Below are positions 18,912-25,588 of a stretch of 32,393 nt of DNA, piece after piece. The notes beneath the pieces were generated by a model that worked only from the letters and a program-made list of their open reading frames with translations, did not search any database and had not been told where the DNA came from. This stretch comes from Caldifarciminota bacterium (GTDB taxonomy: Bacteria > Hydrothermota > Hydrothermia > LBFQ01 > DSFT01), in the NCBI GenBank assembly GCA_026986535.1, contig JALSOK010000114.1:1-32393 (forward strand), read 5' to 3'. The number at the start of each line of letters is the position of its first letter. The first letter of the stretch is position 1. Made by a program: the position numbers and the translations under genes.

Positions 18912-19580
18912 TCAATCGGGAAGCATATACAGCATGGCCATCAATGCACCGGAAGAACTGTAGAAGAAATGGGCCACCAGGCTGTATGTCAGGTTATCCG
19001 TGGACATGAAGGAAGCGTAGGATACCGTTGCAATGGCGAGCAGAATTCCGGCTAATACCCCTATGGTCCATCTCATACCCAGGTCACTGCCCCAGAATAT
19101 GCGCAGAACTGCGGATGCCACCAGAATCAGAAACAGGGACAGCCCTGTCAGTATCCAGCCCAGGAGGGAAATCTCGTTGTTTATGCCCATGTAGATGGCT
19201 ATGGCGGAGAGGAATGCAAAGACTATGAGAACCTGTATCCACTCCTTCAGTTCGAGGCTGTAGCCCATGCTGTAGAGGTTTATGAACATGAACACCACGC
19301 CTATAATGAGGAAGATGTATCCGATTATATTCAGTGTGTGGGACAGGCTTCCATGCGTGAGGAATCCGGCAGTTATGAACAATCCTCCCGTTCCCAGAAA
19401 TGCTATCAGTTTCGCTCTGGCCGTCTCCAGTTTCAGGGATATGGCCTTTCTCCATGCAACGAGTGCGAATATTAAGAAGCTCAGAGCACTGACCAGGTGA
19501 ATATTCTGGGGATTCGTAATAGCAAAATGGGTATAAATCAAAGCAATGGACGCTATAAAAATGGATACAAGTACCAGCAT
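18912..19580 (-). CDS. Multi-pass membrane protein of unknown function
   Basis: 222 aa with about 7-8 hydrophobic segments; TAAAAT box 6 nt upstream of ATG. Confidence 0.75.
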   Translation of the reverse strand: MLVLVSIFIASIALIYTHFAITNPQNIHLVSALSFLIFALVAWRKAISLKLETARAKLIAFLGTGGLFITAGFLTHGSLSHTLNIIGYIFLIIGVVFMFINLYSMGYSLELKEWIQVLIVFAFLSAIAIYMGINNEISLLGWILTGLSLFLILVASAVLRIFWGSDLGMRWTIGVLAGILLAIATVSYASFMSTDNLTYSLVAHFFYSSSGALMAMLYMLPD

Positions 19581-19634
19581 GACCCAATTTTACAGCGTCT
19601 ATAGATATTCTGTTGGAAATCAGTGATTTAAAAT

Positions 19635-19763
19635 ATGGGAAATTGTGGCTGTTCCCTGCCTGCACCCGACGGGCCCCTCCCGGGCTTTCTGTGTCGGCCC
19701 TGTGGAAGCGAATGGAGACCCGTGTCCCTTGAAATCGGTATTGGAAATGCTTTAAACTTTTAG
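19635..19763 (+). CDS. Candidate 42-aa Cys-rich microprotein (or structured RNA)
   Basis: Open frame MGNCGCSLPAPDGPLPGFLCRPCGSEWRPVSLEIGIGNALNF* with CxC and CxxC, in the gap between a divergent gene and tRNA-Glu. Below the 60-aa track cutoff; no SD. Confidence 0.3.
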   Translation: MGNCGCSLPAPDGPLPGFLCRPCGSEWRPVSLEIGIGNALNF

Positions 19764-19768
19764 GACAA

Positions 19769-19843
19769 GCCCCCATCGTCTAGCCTGGTCCAGGACGCCA
19801 GGTTCTCAACCTGGAAACCCGGGTTCAAATCCCGGTGGGGGCG
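19769..19843 (+). tRNA. tRNA-Glu (anticodon CTC)
   Basis: Full cloverleaf: GCCCCCA/TGGGGGC acceptor, GTCTAGCCTGGTCCAGGAC D arm, CCAGG-TTCTCAA-CCTGG anticodon arm, CCGGG-TTCAAAT-CCCGG T arm, discriminator G; CCA not encoded. TAAACT box at 19753-19758. Confidence 0.96.
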
Positions 19844-19845
19844 CT

Positions 19846-20412
19846 TCACTCTTCTGTTTCCCTCCTCATGAGCCTGTAGAGAACTGCCGGTTCTATTATC
19901 TCTATACCCAGTTTCCTTGCGAGGTCTATCTGTCCCTCATCGGCTGTGGACAGGGAAGCATCTTCCTGAAGGGCCAGCAGAATGGTGTCTATGTCTTCTT
20001 TCGAATCCACTATCCCTTCCCTCATCACCCGCCTGTAATTATCCCTGAGATACCTGATGGCTTCCTTCTCCTCCTTATCCCTGAACTCCCTTACGGCCTT
20101 TTCTGCAACCCTCAGCCCCCTGTTTATCCTGTCCCGCATCTGTGCGAGGAAATCGTAAAGGACAATGCCCGGAATGCGGACTTCGTACTTGTTGGGGGTT
20201 TTTATGCGGACCACCCTGTAGAAATCCACTGGAAGTTCCTGAAAGAATGTCTTTAACTCTTCGACCGTCGATGGAGTGGCGTATATTTCGTAGCCCGAAT
20301 CTCCTGCCAGATGTATAAATTCCTCCATGGCCTCTTCCAGGCTTCTGGCTATTTCTCTGGTGCTGTACGGATTTGTAATTACGCTCGTATCTATTACAAC
20401 CTTCCTCTTCAC
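19846..20412 (-). CDS. HARP-type protein-only RNase P (PIN-domain; 'RNA ligase partner'/Homolog of Aquifex RNase P family)
   Basis: 188 aa, GTG start. VVIDTSVITNP, EEAMEEFIHLA, IRDN-like helical insert RDRINRGLRVAEKAVRE..YRRVMREGIVDSKEDIDTILLALQEDASLSTADEGQIDLARKLGIEIIEP matches remembered HARP/Aq_880 family sequence pattern with conserved Asp residues. Confidence 0.88.
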   Translation of the reverse strand: MKRKVVIDTSVITNPYSTREIARSLEEAMEEFIHLAGDSGYEIYATPSTVEELKTFFQELPVDFYRVVRIKTPNKYEVRIPGIVLYDFLAQMRDRINRGLRVAEKAVREFRDKEEKEAIRYLRDNYRRVMREGIVDSKEDIDTILLALQEDASLSTADEGQIDLARKLGIEIIEPAVLYRLMRRETEE

Positions 20413-20413
20413 T

Positions 20414-20785
20414 TCAATCCTCCACCAGTTCTATCAGTATCCTGTGGGTGGAATCGAGGTCCAGGAATACCACGCGGGGTGCAGTGATTCCCTTTTCTAT
20501 GGGGGTTATGGGAGGAAAGTCCTTCAGATAATCTTCCAGGCGCTTCACCTTAAAAGCCAGATGGTGTATTCCATTGCCCCTCTTCTTGAGGAACTTGCTT
20601 ATGGCTGTATCCTCTCTCATCGGTGTCATGACCTCTATCCTTACATTTTCGAGGCTGAACACCGCTATCCTGAGGCCCCTGCCTTCGTCAACTTCTATTT
20701 TCGGTTCCACCCCGAAGAGTTTCCTGTAAGAATTTACGGTTTCCTCGAAATCGTTGACCGCTATCGCGACATGGTCCAGCTTCAT
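20414..20785 (-). CDS. VOC/glyoxalase family, methylmalonyl-CoA epimerase-like
   Basis: 123 aa; MKLDHVAIAVNDFEETVNSYRKLFGVEP, ISKFLKKRGNGIHHLAFKV, ILIELVED. Confidence 0.8.
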   Translation of the reverse strand: MKLDHVAIAVNDFEETVNSYRKLFGVEPKIEVDEGRGLRIAVFSLENVRIEVMTPMREDTAISKFLKKRGNGIHHLAFKVKRLEDYLKDFPPITPIEKGITAPRVVFLDLDSTHRILIELVED

Positions 20786-20809
20786 GTGTAAAAATCTAAA
20801 GGACCGTCC

Positions 20810-22651
20810 TCACGCATTCACATATTTTATGTAATTCAGCAGTCTGTCGAGTATGTAAGAAGCTTCCAGGTCCCTGTATGCATCCTGAAAGAAGGGGATT
20901 GCCTGCACCATCTTCCTGGCTTCCCTTTTCAATCTCCTGGCCTCTTCGGATCTTCCGCTTTCCATGAGTTTCATGGATTGTCTGGCCTTTTGCTCGAATT
21001 CGTAAATGTCGTAGAGGATGTTCCTGTCCTTTATCCAGAGTACCACCGTATCCTCCTCTGCATGGGATTTTATGGTGCAGGAATTCTCGAGCAGTTTGAT
21101 AATCTTCCTGTACCGGCGCATCCTTTTTCTGGGAACCGTTATGCGGTTTCCATCCAGCAGTTTCAGAAGGAAGAGGACCTGATCCCCCTTCAGCTCGATG
21201 CTCTCCCGCAGGTATATTATCCTGGGCTTTTTCCTCAGAAGCAGAACCCTGACCCTTATATCTTTTTCCAGGAGCAGTTTATAGAGGGGTCTGAGCTCGG
21301 GGAAGCTCTTCAGGCGGGTTATGTGTTTCGGCCTGGTCAGTATAATAATCATGAGAAGCCCCATCAGATGGTATTTTTTCGCAAGCCTGTAGGATTCCTT
21401 CAGCTTGCCCATTTCGTAGTACCGGGCTATCCTGTGGCGGGGAGTGAAGGCTTTTTTAGTCTTTCCAAAGAGGATGCTCAACTCCCCGGATCTGTCTATG
21501 CAGGTCTCCACCTTTTTCAGGGCTTCCTGCTTTTTGCCCATGGCCATGAGGAGGTTGCTTTGGGCAATTTCGAGGGCCAGCATCGAGACCCCAGGTGTGG
21601 CCTTCTGCTGGAGCATCTTTTCCAGAAAGTGTCCGGCCTCCTCCAGCCGGCCGGAAAATAGATTTACATAGAACATTGCATAATTGAGCCTATTTCTAAC
21701 AGAATCTATGTCCGTATTCCTGTGTTTTTCGTAGAGCTCTTTTACCGCCTTGAAGTCTCCGGAAAACAGGACGCTTATCACATGATTCGGATCCTGCTTG
21801 TTTGCAAACTGCGGGAAGCCCAGTATCCTCAGCCTCGTCATCAGGGCATTCTTTATGCACATGTTCTTCACTCTTCCGAGTCCTTTTATCAGCTTACCGG
21901 TGTGCTTCATAAAACTGCTACTCCCTGTATGAAGCAGATAGAGGCAGTAGGTGGACAGGGCGAGCAGATAGTACTCATCTGAGAGCTTTCTCAGGGATTC
22001 CCTGTTTATCTGGAATGTCTCTGCGACTTCTTTGATGGTCCTGGAGTAAGTTTCCCTGCTGTCCCATGTCATCTGTGGAATAAGGTATATCTTCAGTCCC
22101 ATGATTCTGAATCTGGTTCTCTGCATGCGGGGGTTCAGATTCTCCTCTATATCTTCCAGGTCTCTCAGGATTTCCTTTACTCCGTAATTGGTGTTGCAGT
22201 ACAGGTAAAAAGCTTTCGATACCTTCAGGTGGGCGGGAAGCAGTTCATCCGGAATGGAGGCCAGGGATGAAATATCTTCTACTGTGTACATTTTGCCTAT
22301 GTGCTTTCTGAAGAGGTCCCATTTCCCCTCCCTCGCATACCACCACAGGTGAGTTTCCAGCTCCCTGTCCGGCTTCCTGAGAATCTTCCTGATGGAGCTT
22401 TCGGAGACCCTTTCATCCAGATTGCTGGCGATTTCCTTTATGCTCATGCCCTTTTCGTAAAGTTCTATGATTCTCTTTCTCAATTTCTCCGGCTTTTTTC
22501 TTCCGTGGGGCCTGTAGTCCCACCCTTCTTTCTTAATGCGGAGCACGGTTTCCAGAGAACAGTTGTATTTGCCTGCCAGTTGCCTCAGGGACAGGATGCC
22601 TGCCTCGATATCTTTGAGAATCAAAAATTTCTTCTCCAAAACTTCACCCAT
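20810..22651 (-). CDS. Large putative transcriptional regulator: N-terminal HTH pair, TPR-like middle, BTAD-like C-terminus
   Basis: 613 aa; SLRQLAGKYNCSLETVLRIKKEGW and MSIKEIASNLDERVSESSIRKILRK HTH segments, helical repeat region (LEIAQSNLLMAMGKKQEALKKVETC), C-terminal RQSMKLMESGRSEEARRLKREARKM. Confidence 0.65.
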   Translation of the reverse strand: MGEVLEKKFLILKDIEAGILSLRQLAGKYNCSLETVLRIKKEGWDYRPHGRKKPEKLRKRIIELYEKGMSIKEIASNLDERVSESSIRKILRKPDRELETHLWWYAREGKWDLFRKHIGKMYTVEDISSLASIPDELLPAHLKVSKAFYLYCNTNYGVKEILRDLEDIEENLNPRMQRTRFRIMGLKIYLIPQMTWDSRETYSRTIKEVAETFQINRESLRKLSDEYYLLALSTYCLYLLHTGSSSFMKHTGKLIKGLGRVKNMCIKNALMTRLRILGFPQFANKQDPNHVISVLFSGDFKAVKELYEKHRNTDIDSVRNRLNYAMFYVNLFSGRLEEAGHFLEKMLQQKATPGVSMLALEIAQSNLLMAMGKKQEALKKVETCIDRSGELSILFGKTKKAFTPRHRIARYYEMGKLKESYRLAKKYHLMGLLMIIILTRPKHITRLKSFPELRPLYKLLLEKDIRVRVLLLRKKPRIIYLRESIELKGDQVLFLLKLLDGNRITVPRKRMRRYRKIIKLLENSCTIKSHAEEDTVVLWIKDRNILYDIYEFEQKARQSMKLMESGRSEEARRLKREARKMVQAIPFFQDAYRDLEASYILDRLLNYIKYVNA

Positions 22652-22699
22652 TCATCACAATTTTAATGGGGTGGATTTTGCTTTATAATTGCGTGCAGG

Positions 22700-25588
22700 G
22701 TGAAAAAACCTATCATTCTGGGAAGAATTTATCTGCTCCTGTGGGCCCTCATCGAGGCCCTATTCATCGGTATCTCCACATCTCTGTTTCTCATGGCCAT
22801 CTATCCCTTTCCTGTTTCTTTCGCTTCCCTCCTTTCCGCTCTGGTTTCAGTCCTCTACGCTTTGTGGAAGTTCCTCCGCTCCGGAGATAGGGAGATTGCA
22901 TGGATGTACGAATATTCCCATCCGGACCTGGATGAACTCCTTATAACCTATGTGGAGACGGGAGATGAGAGGCTCGCTTCCCGCTTGAAGAAGAAGAGAT
23001 TACACTTCTGGCGCATATATCGTCCGGACTGGAGAATTTTTGCCCTCTTACCCCTATCCGCGGCGGTATTCGCCATCTCTTTTCAGCTGAGGAGGCCCCT
23101 CTACCTGTGGAGGCTGGGTATCGTTGACAGGGAGGTATCCGCGAGGGTGGATGGGTATGTATTCTTCTACGGGGAGGATGTTCCTGTGCTCGTGGTGAGC
23201 CGCAGTCCCCTGCCCGAGAATGTTCTGGTTGCAGGGCCGGATACGGCCATCAGCCTGAGGGTGCTTCCCGGGGATACCATGAGGGATACCCTTTCCGGCC
23301 TGAATGCTGGAAGGTATTATCTGCGCTTTGCTTCTGCTGTTTTGGATTCGTTTGCCGTTGTGTCCCGTCCCGTGGTGGAGAGTCTGAGGGTGGAGATTTT
23401 CGCTCCGTACATCGGGAGAACTTATATCTTTCGAAACGCCTACGAGGTTCCCGCCCTCCAGGGGAGCCGGGTGCGGCTGAGGGTGTACCACGATGGGGAC
23501 AGTGTCCGGCTCGAGGGTGTGGATTCTGTACTGAGAGTGGTTTCCGATACACAGATTGCATTCCGCCTTTACAGGATGGGAAGATCCTACCTTTTTCCCC
23601 GCAGAATCTCTATAAAGATGGTCAGGGATATGCCTCCGGTTGTTCGGATAGTTCTGCCGTCCCGAAAATTCGTCTATCTGCCGGAGGATGGGGTTGTACC
23701 TCTGGGGGCTGTTTCCACGGATGACATCGGTCTGCGCAGGGTGAGGATTTCGTATGTCTTCGACAATTCATCGAGGGAGGTCGTATCCATGCGTCCCGAC
23801 TCTCCCCTGAAGGACACCTTCCTGAGGTATGTGGATCTCAATGCCTCCGGTATGCTTCCGGGGGATGAGGTCAGGATAGAGGTTGTGGCTGAGGATCTGC
23901 GGGGTCAGAGGTCGAAAGACATGATTACCGTCCGGTTTCCCACCCTCCACGAGCAGACGAGCATGTCGGATACCATGATGGCCACATCCACCGGTCGCAT
24001 GGAGGATGTGTTCGAAAAGGCTGATCAGCTTCAGGAGGATGTACGCCGCATATACACCATGGACTCCACGGGGATAAGGGGATTGATGGAAAGGGTGGAA
24101 GAAATCAACAGGCAGATGCAGGAGGTATCGCGCCAGATGCAGGAAATGTCCCGATTTATTCCCTTCGATGAGGAACTACAGCAGATGGTGGAGAAACTGG
24201 AGGAGATCTACAGGCGCATACTGGACGGGGAAATGAAGTCCATACTGGAAAAACTGCAGAAGCTGGAAAATCGGAATCTTTCCGATATGGACAGGAAGAG
24301 ATTGATGGACAGGGTGATCAGGGATATGGAGCGCCTCAAGGAGAGCATCAGGGCCACTTATGAAACCCTCAACAGATTCTATCAGGAGAAGCGCCTGGAG
24401 GAGCTGGCCCGCCAGCTGGAAGAGCTGGCTTTTCGTCAGGAGCTCGCCTCCGGTCCTGCGGAGCAGGATTCCATAGCCGCTATGATGGATTCCATCTCAT
24501 CTTCCATGAGGGAGCTTTCGAAACAGCTGGAAAGACCCTTTAGTGATTCCCTCAGCAATATGGGAAGCGAGGCGGACTCCTTATCTTTGGATATGAAGCA
24601 GATGGTGCAGAGGATGCGCTCTGGCCAGAGGGTTTCCCCCAGTGAGAGGATGGAAATGGCCCGGAGGATGCGAAACCTCTCCTCCCGCATGTCCAGGATG
24701 CTCTCGTCCATGATTTCCTCCAGAAAGAAGGAGATTCTCGAGGAATTGAGAAGGATAAGGGAGCAGGTGGCCTTCATCCTTTACAACTCCGATGTGAAGG
24801 AGTATTACGAGCAGCAGAATGTGGTGGATGCTCTGAGGGTGGTCCTCCTTCAGCTGAGGGAGGTGATTCCGAAGAATTTCCTCGTATCTGCATCCATAGT
24901 GGGGTATCTGTACTCAGCATTCGACAATGCGGATGAGGCTCGACTTCGCATGTACTATGGTGATGACCGGGGGGCGGAGCCCTTCCTGGAGGGGGAGCGC
25001 AGGGATATGCTTCTGTCCCTTATAGAGGTCAGTAAATCCATGAATCAGATTTCCAGCGCCTCCTCATCCACGGGTTTTCAGGAAATGCTTCAGCAGATGG
25101 CCAGGGCTGTAGGGCAACAGGCTTCCCTCAACGGGAGATTGCAGATGATGATCTCCAGGGGAAATGTTTCCGTGGAGGCTTACAGGAGGCTGGCGGACCA
25201 GCAGGCCCGCATCAGACAGATGCTGGAGGGCATCAGGAGGGGGCTGGAATCCATAGGGGAGAGGGGGAGGGAGCATGCCCGTCGCCTCAGGGAGATAGAG
25301 AAGGAGATGGAGGACATCGAAAGGCGGATTCGTCTTGGAAAGGTGGACAGGAAACTCCTGGAGAGGCAGAGGAAGATTCTCAACAGATTGATGGAGGCAT
25401 ATACGGGGCTGAAGAGCCAGGAGCTGGAGAGGAAGAGGCAGGCTGTAAGGGCCCGTCCGTACAGGATGGAGATTCCCCCTGTGCCGGAGGAGGTTCTAAT
25501 AAGGCGCAGGATCCTACAGCTCATGACCAGTCCCGACGAAGTGGGAGAGCTTCTGGAGATATACAGGAAGATATTACAGCGCTTCTGA
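22700..25588 (+). CDS. Large membrane-anchored coiled-coil protein, possibly DUF4175-like
   Basis: 962 aa, GTG start; two N-terminal TM helices plus a third near aa 115, beta-rich extracytoplasmic region, then long Glu/Arg/Met-rich coiled coil. Family call is from architecture only. Confidence 0.6.
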   Translation: MKKPIILGRIYLLLWALIEALFIGISTSLFLMAIYPFPVSFASLLSALVSVLYALWKFLRSGDREIAWMYEYSHPDLDELLITYVETGDERLASRLKKKRLHFWRIYRPDWRIFALLPLSAAVFAISFQLRRPLYLWRLGIVDREVSARVDGYVFFYGEDVPVLVVSRSPLPENVLVAGPDTAISLRVLPGDTMRDTLSGLNAGRYYLRFASAVLDSFAVVSRPVVESLRVEIFAPYIGRTYIFRNAYEVPALQGSRVRLRVYHDGDSVRLEGVDSVLRVVSDTQIAFRLYRMGRSYLFPRRISIKMVRDMPPVVRIVLPSRKFVYLPEDGVVPLGAVSTDDIGLRRVRISYVFDNSSREVVSMRPDSPLKDTFLRYVDLNASGMLPGDEVRIEVVAEDLRGQRSKDMITVRFPTLHEQTSMSDTMMATSTGRMEDVFEKADQLQEDVRRIYTMDSTGIRGLMERVEEINRQMQEVSRQMQEMSRFIPFDEELQQMVEKLEEIYRRILDGEMKSILEKLQKLENRNLSDMDRKRLMDRVIRDMERLKESIRATYETLNRFYQEKRLEELARQLEELAFRQELASGPAEQDSIAAMMDSISSSMRELSKQLERPFSDSLSNMGSEADSLSLDMKQMVQRMRSGQRVSPSERMEMARRMRNLSSRMSRMLSSMISSRKKEILEELRRIREQVAFILYNSDVKEYYEQQNVVDALRVVLLQLREVIPKNFLVSASIVGYLYSAFDNADEARLRMYYGDDRGAEPFLEGERRDMLLSLIEVSKSMNQISSASSSTGFQEMLQQMARAVGQQASLNGRLQMMISRGNVSVEAYRRLADQQARIRQMLEGIRRGLESIGERGREHARRLREIEKEMEDIERRIRLGKVDRKLLERQRKILNRLMEAYTGLKSQELERKRQAVRARPYRMEIPPVPEEVLIRRRILQLMTSPDEVGELLEIYRKILQRF

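Follow-up and report, generated by a model that had tools for sequence, protein, structure and literature searches.

RNase P, an RNA enzyme among the most ancient ribozymes, has given way to a small protein in a few bacteria, of which the Aquificaceae are the best-studied case. Genomes known to carry only the protein enzyme HARP (homolog of Aquifex RNase P) belong to the Aquificaceae, a few Nitrospirae and unnamed unclassified bacteria (PMC6380272, PMC10941002). The catalytic aspartates of the Aquifex aeolicus protein, Aq880, are D7, D138, D142 and D161 (PMC8266387). An RNA ligase was found in 89% of HARP genomes by Seshadri and Gopalan in 2025, who suggested a joint role for the two proteins (PMC12153264). 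The HARP-only state is thus already known, and the features that we report for the phylum Caldifarciminota (candidate division WOR-3) appear not to have been described in the searchable literature, in which we found no paper mentioning WOR-3 together with RNase P; earlier surveys may count some of the genomes in their supplementary lists.

The stretch of DNA analysed here (the window, 32,393 nucleotides) comes from a 1.74-Mb draft genome of this phylum that is 96% complete. On its minus strand, positions 19846-20412 encode a 188-residue PIN-domain protein with a GTG start codon and a stop codon at 19848-19846, which the sequence-only reading had taken for HARP. Profile, sequence and fold comparisons all agree with that identification. 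The protein scored 154.9 bits against TIGR03875 (cut-off 95.3) and 154.7 bits against PF08745 (Pfam PIN_5, cut-off 27), and its seven sequence matches in the PDB were all RNA-free RNase P, including the HARPs of Aquifex, Thermococcus celer, Planctomycetes, Halorhodospira and Hydrogenobacter. Its catalytic aspartates (Asp8, Asp136, Asp140 and Asp158) are invariant in the HARP alignment. An AlphaFold2 model (mean pLDDT 88.5) showed a PIN fold with two long spike helices at residues 82-109 and 115-131, and in Foldseek comparisons this predicted fold reached a TM-score of up to 0.91 with HARP complexes, compared to about 0.47 with VapC4. The closest fold in the PDB was the HARP of Planctomycetes bacterium GWF2_40_8 (7E8O; TM 0.91, 38% identity). 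Aq880, which comes from another phylum and is about 40% identical, belongs to the same family and shares the four aspartates and the spike helices, and in the Aquificaceae, as here, both rnpA and rnpB are absent. Among named records, the closest HARP was 86% identical and came from a candidate division WOR-3 metagenome-assembled genome (L056), a phylum for which NCBI now uses the name Caldifarciminota and to which the window would accordingly belong. Judged by sequence and predicted fold, the window gene is a true HARP.

The HARP gene is the last in a run of three genes on the minus strand. The run begins with a gene for a 613-residue protein (20810-22651) that has an N-terminal helix-turn-helix and no other Pfam domain, followed by a gene for a VOC/glyoxalase-fold protein (20414-20785) resembling methylmalonyl-CoA epimerase, the epimerase match being below the profile cut-off. 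HARP starts 1 nt downstream of the VOC-fold gene, and the two are probably co-transcribed. The same order of helix-turn-helix gene, VOC gene and HARP is kept in L056.

We searched 100 genomes of the phylum for HARP, rnpB (RF00010), rnpA (PF00825) and the Rnl3 RNA ligase (TIGR01209). HARP was above the cut-off in 23 of them, and a search of 147 genomes of the phylum found none beyond these 23. Neither rnpA nor rnpB accompanied HARP in any of the four genomes of the window's family (f1) or the five of family f17, which belongs to another class; RF00010 and PF00825 matched in none of these nine genomes, all of which are draft assemblies. The other 14 HARP genomes (families f4, f5, f7, f10 and f11) carry rnpB, rnpA or both. 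In the window's own genome, where the sequence-only reading had proposed looking for the RNA-based enzyme (RNP), both genes were absent, with no match to RF00010 or PF00825 and none above chance to RF00011 or RF00373. The class B (RF00011) and archaeal (RF00373) RNase P RNA models likewise gave nothing above chance across the nine; their weak matches, of 17 bits or less, were scattered, fell below the cut-offs and were discarded. As a control for RNA searches, full-length tmRNA was recovered from seven of the nine. The sister family f2, in the same order as f1, is HARP-free and relies on RNP only, its rnpB scoring 189-220 bits in seven of eight genomes and being partial in the eighth. Assembly gaps are not the cause of the missing genes, because only one of the 91 genomes outside f1 and f17 (G096, 61% complete) was without both rnpA and rnpB.

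The position that rnpA would occupy was itself recovered. The control order rpmH-rnpA-yidD was present in G012, G018 and G031, and in all eight rpmH loci recovered from f1 and f17 (G000, G001, G002, G003, G045, G070, G074 and G078) rpmH was followed directly by yidD, with a few bases between them or an overlap and no rnpA; in the ninth genome, G090, no rpmH match was found. The identity of YidD was confirmed for one f1 and one f17 protein. The absence of rnpA is not an assembly gap, because the gene is missing from the inside of an assembled contig. An apparent in-frame TGA in rnpA of genus g5 proved on inspection to be the terminal stop codon in G012. In one RNP-only f2 genome (G008), rnpB abuts a tRNA gene (C55:73246-73747), and rnpA, which is not next to rpmH, is about 100 nt from a different tRNA (C1:27625-28040).

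The distribution of the Rnl3 ligase divided the HARP genomes along the same line. The ligase was present in 14 of 14 genomes carrying HARP together with RNP and in none of the nine carrying HARP only, and in eight of the 14 (G013, G018, G023, G026, G029, G031, G035 and G037) its gene was convergent with HARP and lay 3-17 nt from the HARP 3' end. These 14 genomes, eight with abutting genes, therefore resemble the described HARP-ligase pairing (PMC12153264), whereas f1 and f17 differ from it in having neither ligase nor RNP. They may also differ from the Aquificales: of 178 bacterial genomes from HARP taxa that include the Aquificales, 164 were ligase-positive (PMC12153264). Treated as a plain 2x2 table, the split would come about by chance roughly once in 817,000 (the reciprocal of 23 choose 9), a figure that overstates the evidence because the nine HARP-only genomes form just two clades; the pattern rests on few independent events. 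The phylum holds two classes of HARP, one linked to the ligase and found beside RNP, the other ligase-free and very probably replacing RNP. This suggests that the ligase is tied to an accessory role of HARP rather than to tRNA maturation, and would be dispensable where HARP is the RNase P.

In the HARP tree, the stems of both f1 (1.6 changes per site) and f17 (1.1) were long, f1 being nearest to HARPs of its class and f17 grouping with those of Planctomycetes and Thermococcus, with weak support for these placements. A common origin of the two was considered and not adopted, since the tree separated them, and a joint clade was not rejected (p-AU 0.215); the data are compatible with one takeover or two. 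Loss of RNP is most simply explained by two events, because the order and class mates of f1 keep it.

The window's genome encodes 45 tRNAs covering all 20 amino acids. An exact TAWAAT box preceded 29 of 39 tRNAs at a distance of 8-16 nt, against 0.4 expected from shuffled sequence, and leaders of only a few nucleotides are therefore predicted. Boxes at the same distance were also seen upstream of most tRNA genes in G002, G008 and G018, whatever their type of RNase P. A short leader had been predicted for tRNA-Glu in the window from a TAAACT box; the box does lie 10 nt before the gene, but short predicted leaders are a trait of the class that includes RNP genomes and are not specific to HARP. 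Short leaders as a hallmark of HARP-only genomes were rejected on the same ground, the spacing being shared by the RNP-bearing f2 (G008) and f4 (G018). Spacers between tandem tRNAs were 8-16 nt in the window's genome and 2-5 nt in G002, leaving little or no room for a separate start, which makes a leaderless system of the Nanoarchaeum type unlikely and points to a continuing need for RNase P activity. Hydrogenobacter HARP cleaves CCA-bearing pre-tRNA 10-fold slower (PMC10652100). Loss of the encoded 3'-CCA as an adaptation to HARP was nevertheless set aside, as CCA was rare in every genome checked (1/45 tRNAs in G000, 1/40 in G002, 0/36 in G008, 2/39 in G018 and 2/28 in G045) and is at most a permissive background.

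Taken with the identity of the protein, the absence of rnpA, rnpB and ligase from the searched sequences and the empty rnpA slot, we consider HARP to be, with a probability of roughly 0.87, the catalytically competent and sole RNase P of the window organism and its family. Its activity, exclusive role, oligomeric state and mechanism we infer. Following solved homologs, this PIN-like metallonuclease would assemble into a ring-like oligomer: one subunit would grip the elbow of the tRNA with its spike helices, and another would cleave between -1 and +1 at its four-aspartate metal site. Cleavage would free tRNAs that are transcribed singly from their short 5' leaders and split tandem tRNAs. The RNA-based enzyme would have disappeared, rnpA dropping out of the interval flanked by rpmH and yidD, and as f1 and f17 are without the RNA ligase, the RNase P role of HARP seems not to need it. 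A number of HARPs from bacteria showed no processing of pre-tRNA in vitro (PMC12153264), which speaks against a sole role; a strongly diverged RNase P RNA could escape the covariance models, and with short leaders many tRNAs may need little 5' processing.

There are three other accounts of the gene. HARP falls within the VapC group of PIN domains (PMC12153264), but the chance that the window gene encodes a generic VapC toxin is practically negligible: its best profile, sequence and fold matches were all to HARP, profile searches of its neighbours revealed no adjoining antitoxin-like gene, and HARP is retained in every family member that lost RNP. HARP might instead have a side function in special RNA processing or repair with the RNA ligase, the housekeeping being left to an RNA-based RNase P that has diverged and escaped detection. 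This would fit the accepted picture in archaea, where HARP knock-outs grow normally (PMC10941002), and the 14 further genomes of the phylum in which HARP and RNP occur together. We judge it improbable, given that rnpA and rnpB were absent from nine of nine genomes while the sister family yielded rnpB matches of 189-220 bits in seven of eight, that the slot between rpmH and yidD was empty, and that the supposed ligase partner was absent from exactly the nine HARP-only genomes. Finally, the organism could have dispensed with RNase P as Nanoarchaeum equitans did, using leaderless tRNAs and leaving HARP to do something else. Promoter boxes do stand near most tRNAs (the median distance from hexamer to +1 is 12 nt), but RNP-bearing genomes of f2 and f4 show the same spacing (median 11), tRNAs in tandem cannot be leaderless when their spacers are 2-16 nt, and HARP was kept in all nine genomes, so that this account is hardly credible.

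A further proposal concerned the neighbour of HARP. A tRNA-Glu gene (anticodon CTC; 19769-19843, plus strand; ARAGORN and Rfam), in which the 3'-CCA is not encoded, converges on HARP, and the sequence-only reading had placed the two 2 nt apart. The coordinates bear this out: the discriminator base is 19843, the HARP frame ends at 19846 and two bases (19844-19845) lie between. The tRNA has a sigma-70-like promoter, TTGAAA-18 nt-TAAACT (19729-19758, plus strand), ending 10 nt before the gene, and this was the single such match within 19500-23000. It had been suggested that transcript overlap could let the tRNA maturase and the tRNA gene affect each other; in one form of this idea, antisense HARP mRNA and tRNA-Glu would be mutually regulating. 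In L056 the HARP frame extends 19 nt into the tRNA-Glu gene, and terminator prediction gave none on the minus strand between HARP and the next gene in the window, both of which would suit a functional arrangement. When neighbourhoods were compared, however, the convergent tRNA-Glu was seen beside HARP in both species of the window's genus g1 (the window's and L056) and not beyond it. In the sister genus g2, tRNA-Glu(CTC) sits elsewhere; there the tRNA near HARP, on the same strand and some 410 nt upstream, is a tRNA-Lys(UUU). The examined flanks of the f17 HARPs (up to 1.5 kb per side) contained no tRNA. The adjacency was therefore rejected as a conserved unit outside g1, and with it cross-talk between the two genes as a conserved feature. 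The spacing itself is unremarkable, because convergent frames of 100 codons or more end within 10 nt of three of the 31 tRNAs checked in the window's genome. A regulatory arrangement is thus very improbable, and we regard tRNA-Glu as an incidental close convergent neighbour of HARP.

Genus g2 has a broken HARP frame in both of its species (L059:3998-4520 in SKYB27, contig coverage 88; L057:3998-4536 in JZ-1.bins.166, coverage 6). It stops after 43 codons and the remainder lies in the -1 frame. The switch point is a run of nine A residues 101 nt from the start codon in both species, in the context A_AAA_AAC or A_AAA_AAT, and the first catalytic aspartate is on the first part while the other three are on the second. 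Separate translation of the second frame is unlikely, because it is open for no more than 4-5 codons ahead of the run's end and the 45 codons that follow the run include no ATG, GTG or TTG. Between the two species dN/dS was about 0.34 over 33 codons of the first part and 0.12 over 141 codons of the second, and purifying selection acts on both sides of the run. Full-length HARP would therefore need slippage adding one extra A, or -1 frameshifting; the downstream RNA folds are weak, which slightly favours slippage over ribosomal frameshifting. A shared assembly error is conceivable, but the two data sets are independent and it would have had to strike one and the same run in each. On the G002 contig of 172.8 kb there are only two runs of nine, and the sole other candidate frame break at an A run looked like a normal boundary between two long frames. 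Around the g2 loci (L057:3515-4540 and L059:3517-4530) the order is tRNA-Lys(UUU), then, beginning 1-3 nt further on, a small frame resembling a lipoprotein, and then HARP, and in L057 a frame resembling the start of the Obg GTPase overlaps the HARP end.

Recoding at such runs has precedents. In Thermus thermophilus dnaX, a run of nine A residues gives about 50% transcriptional slippage (PMC1088944), and prfB, encoding release factor 2, has an obligate shift after a short first frame (PMC5009743). The g2 genes share with these the nine-A run, the short first frame and the continuation in another frame; the likeness is a model only, as recoding in g2 is putative and concerns the sister genus, not the window gene. 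No title returned by our literature search concerned a frameshifted HARP. The fullest version of this idea is that HARP replaced the RNA enzyme at least twice and that in g2 it is made only by recoding at A_AAA_AAY, whose lysine codons are read by the tRNA-Lys(UUU) encoded upstream. We hold this combination to be unlikely. If true, the amount of tRNA maturase made would depend on how much of one mature tRNA is available, a feedback like that of release factor 2, the tRNA-Lys part of which is speculation. The broken frame of a sole and presumably essential RNase P makes g2 a sharp and inexpensive test case for programmed recoding.

One thermophile of the phylum has been brought into culture (PMC12285271). 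The clean division of the ligase between the two groups of HARP genomes bears directly on the 2025 proposal of a ligase partner. A single phylum holds all stages, from RNP only, through RNP with HARP and ligase, to HARP alone, and sister families of one order have arrived at opposite outcomes, f1 with HARP only and f2 with RNP only.
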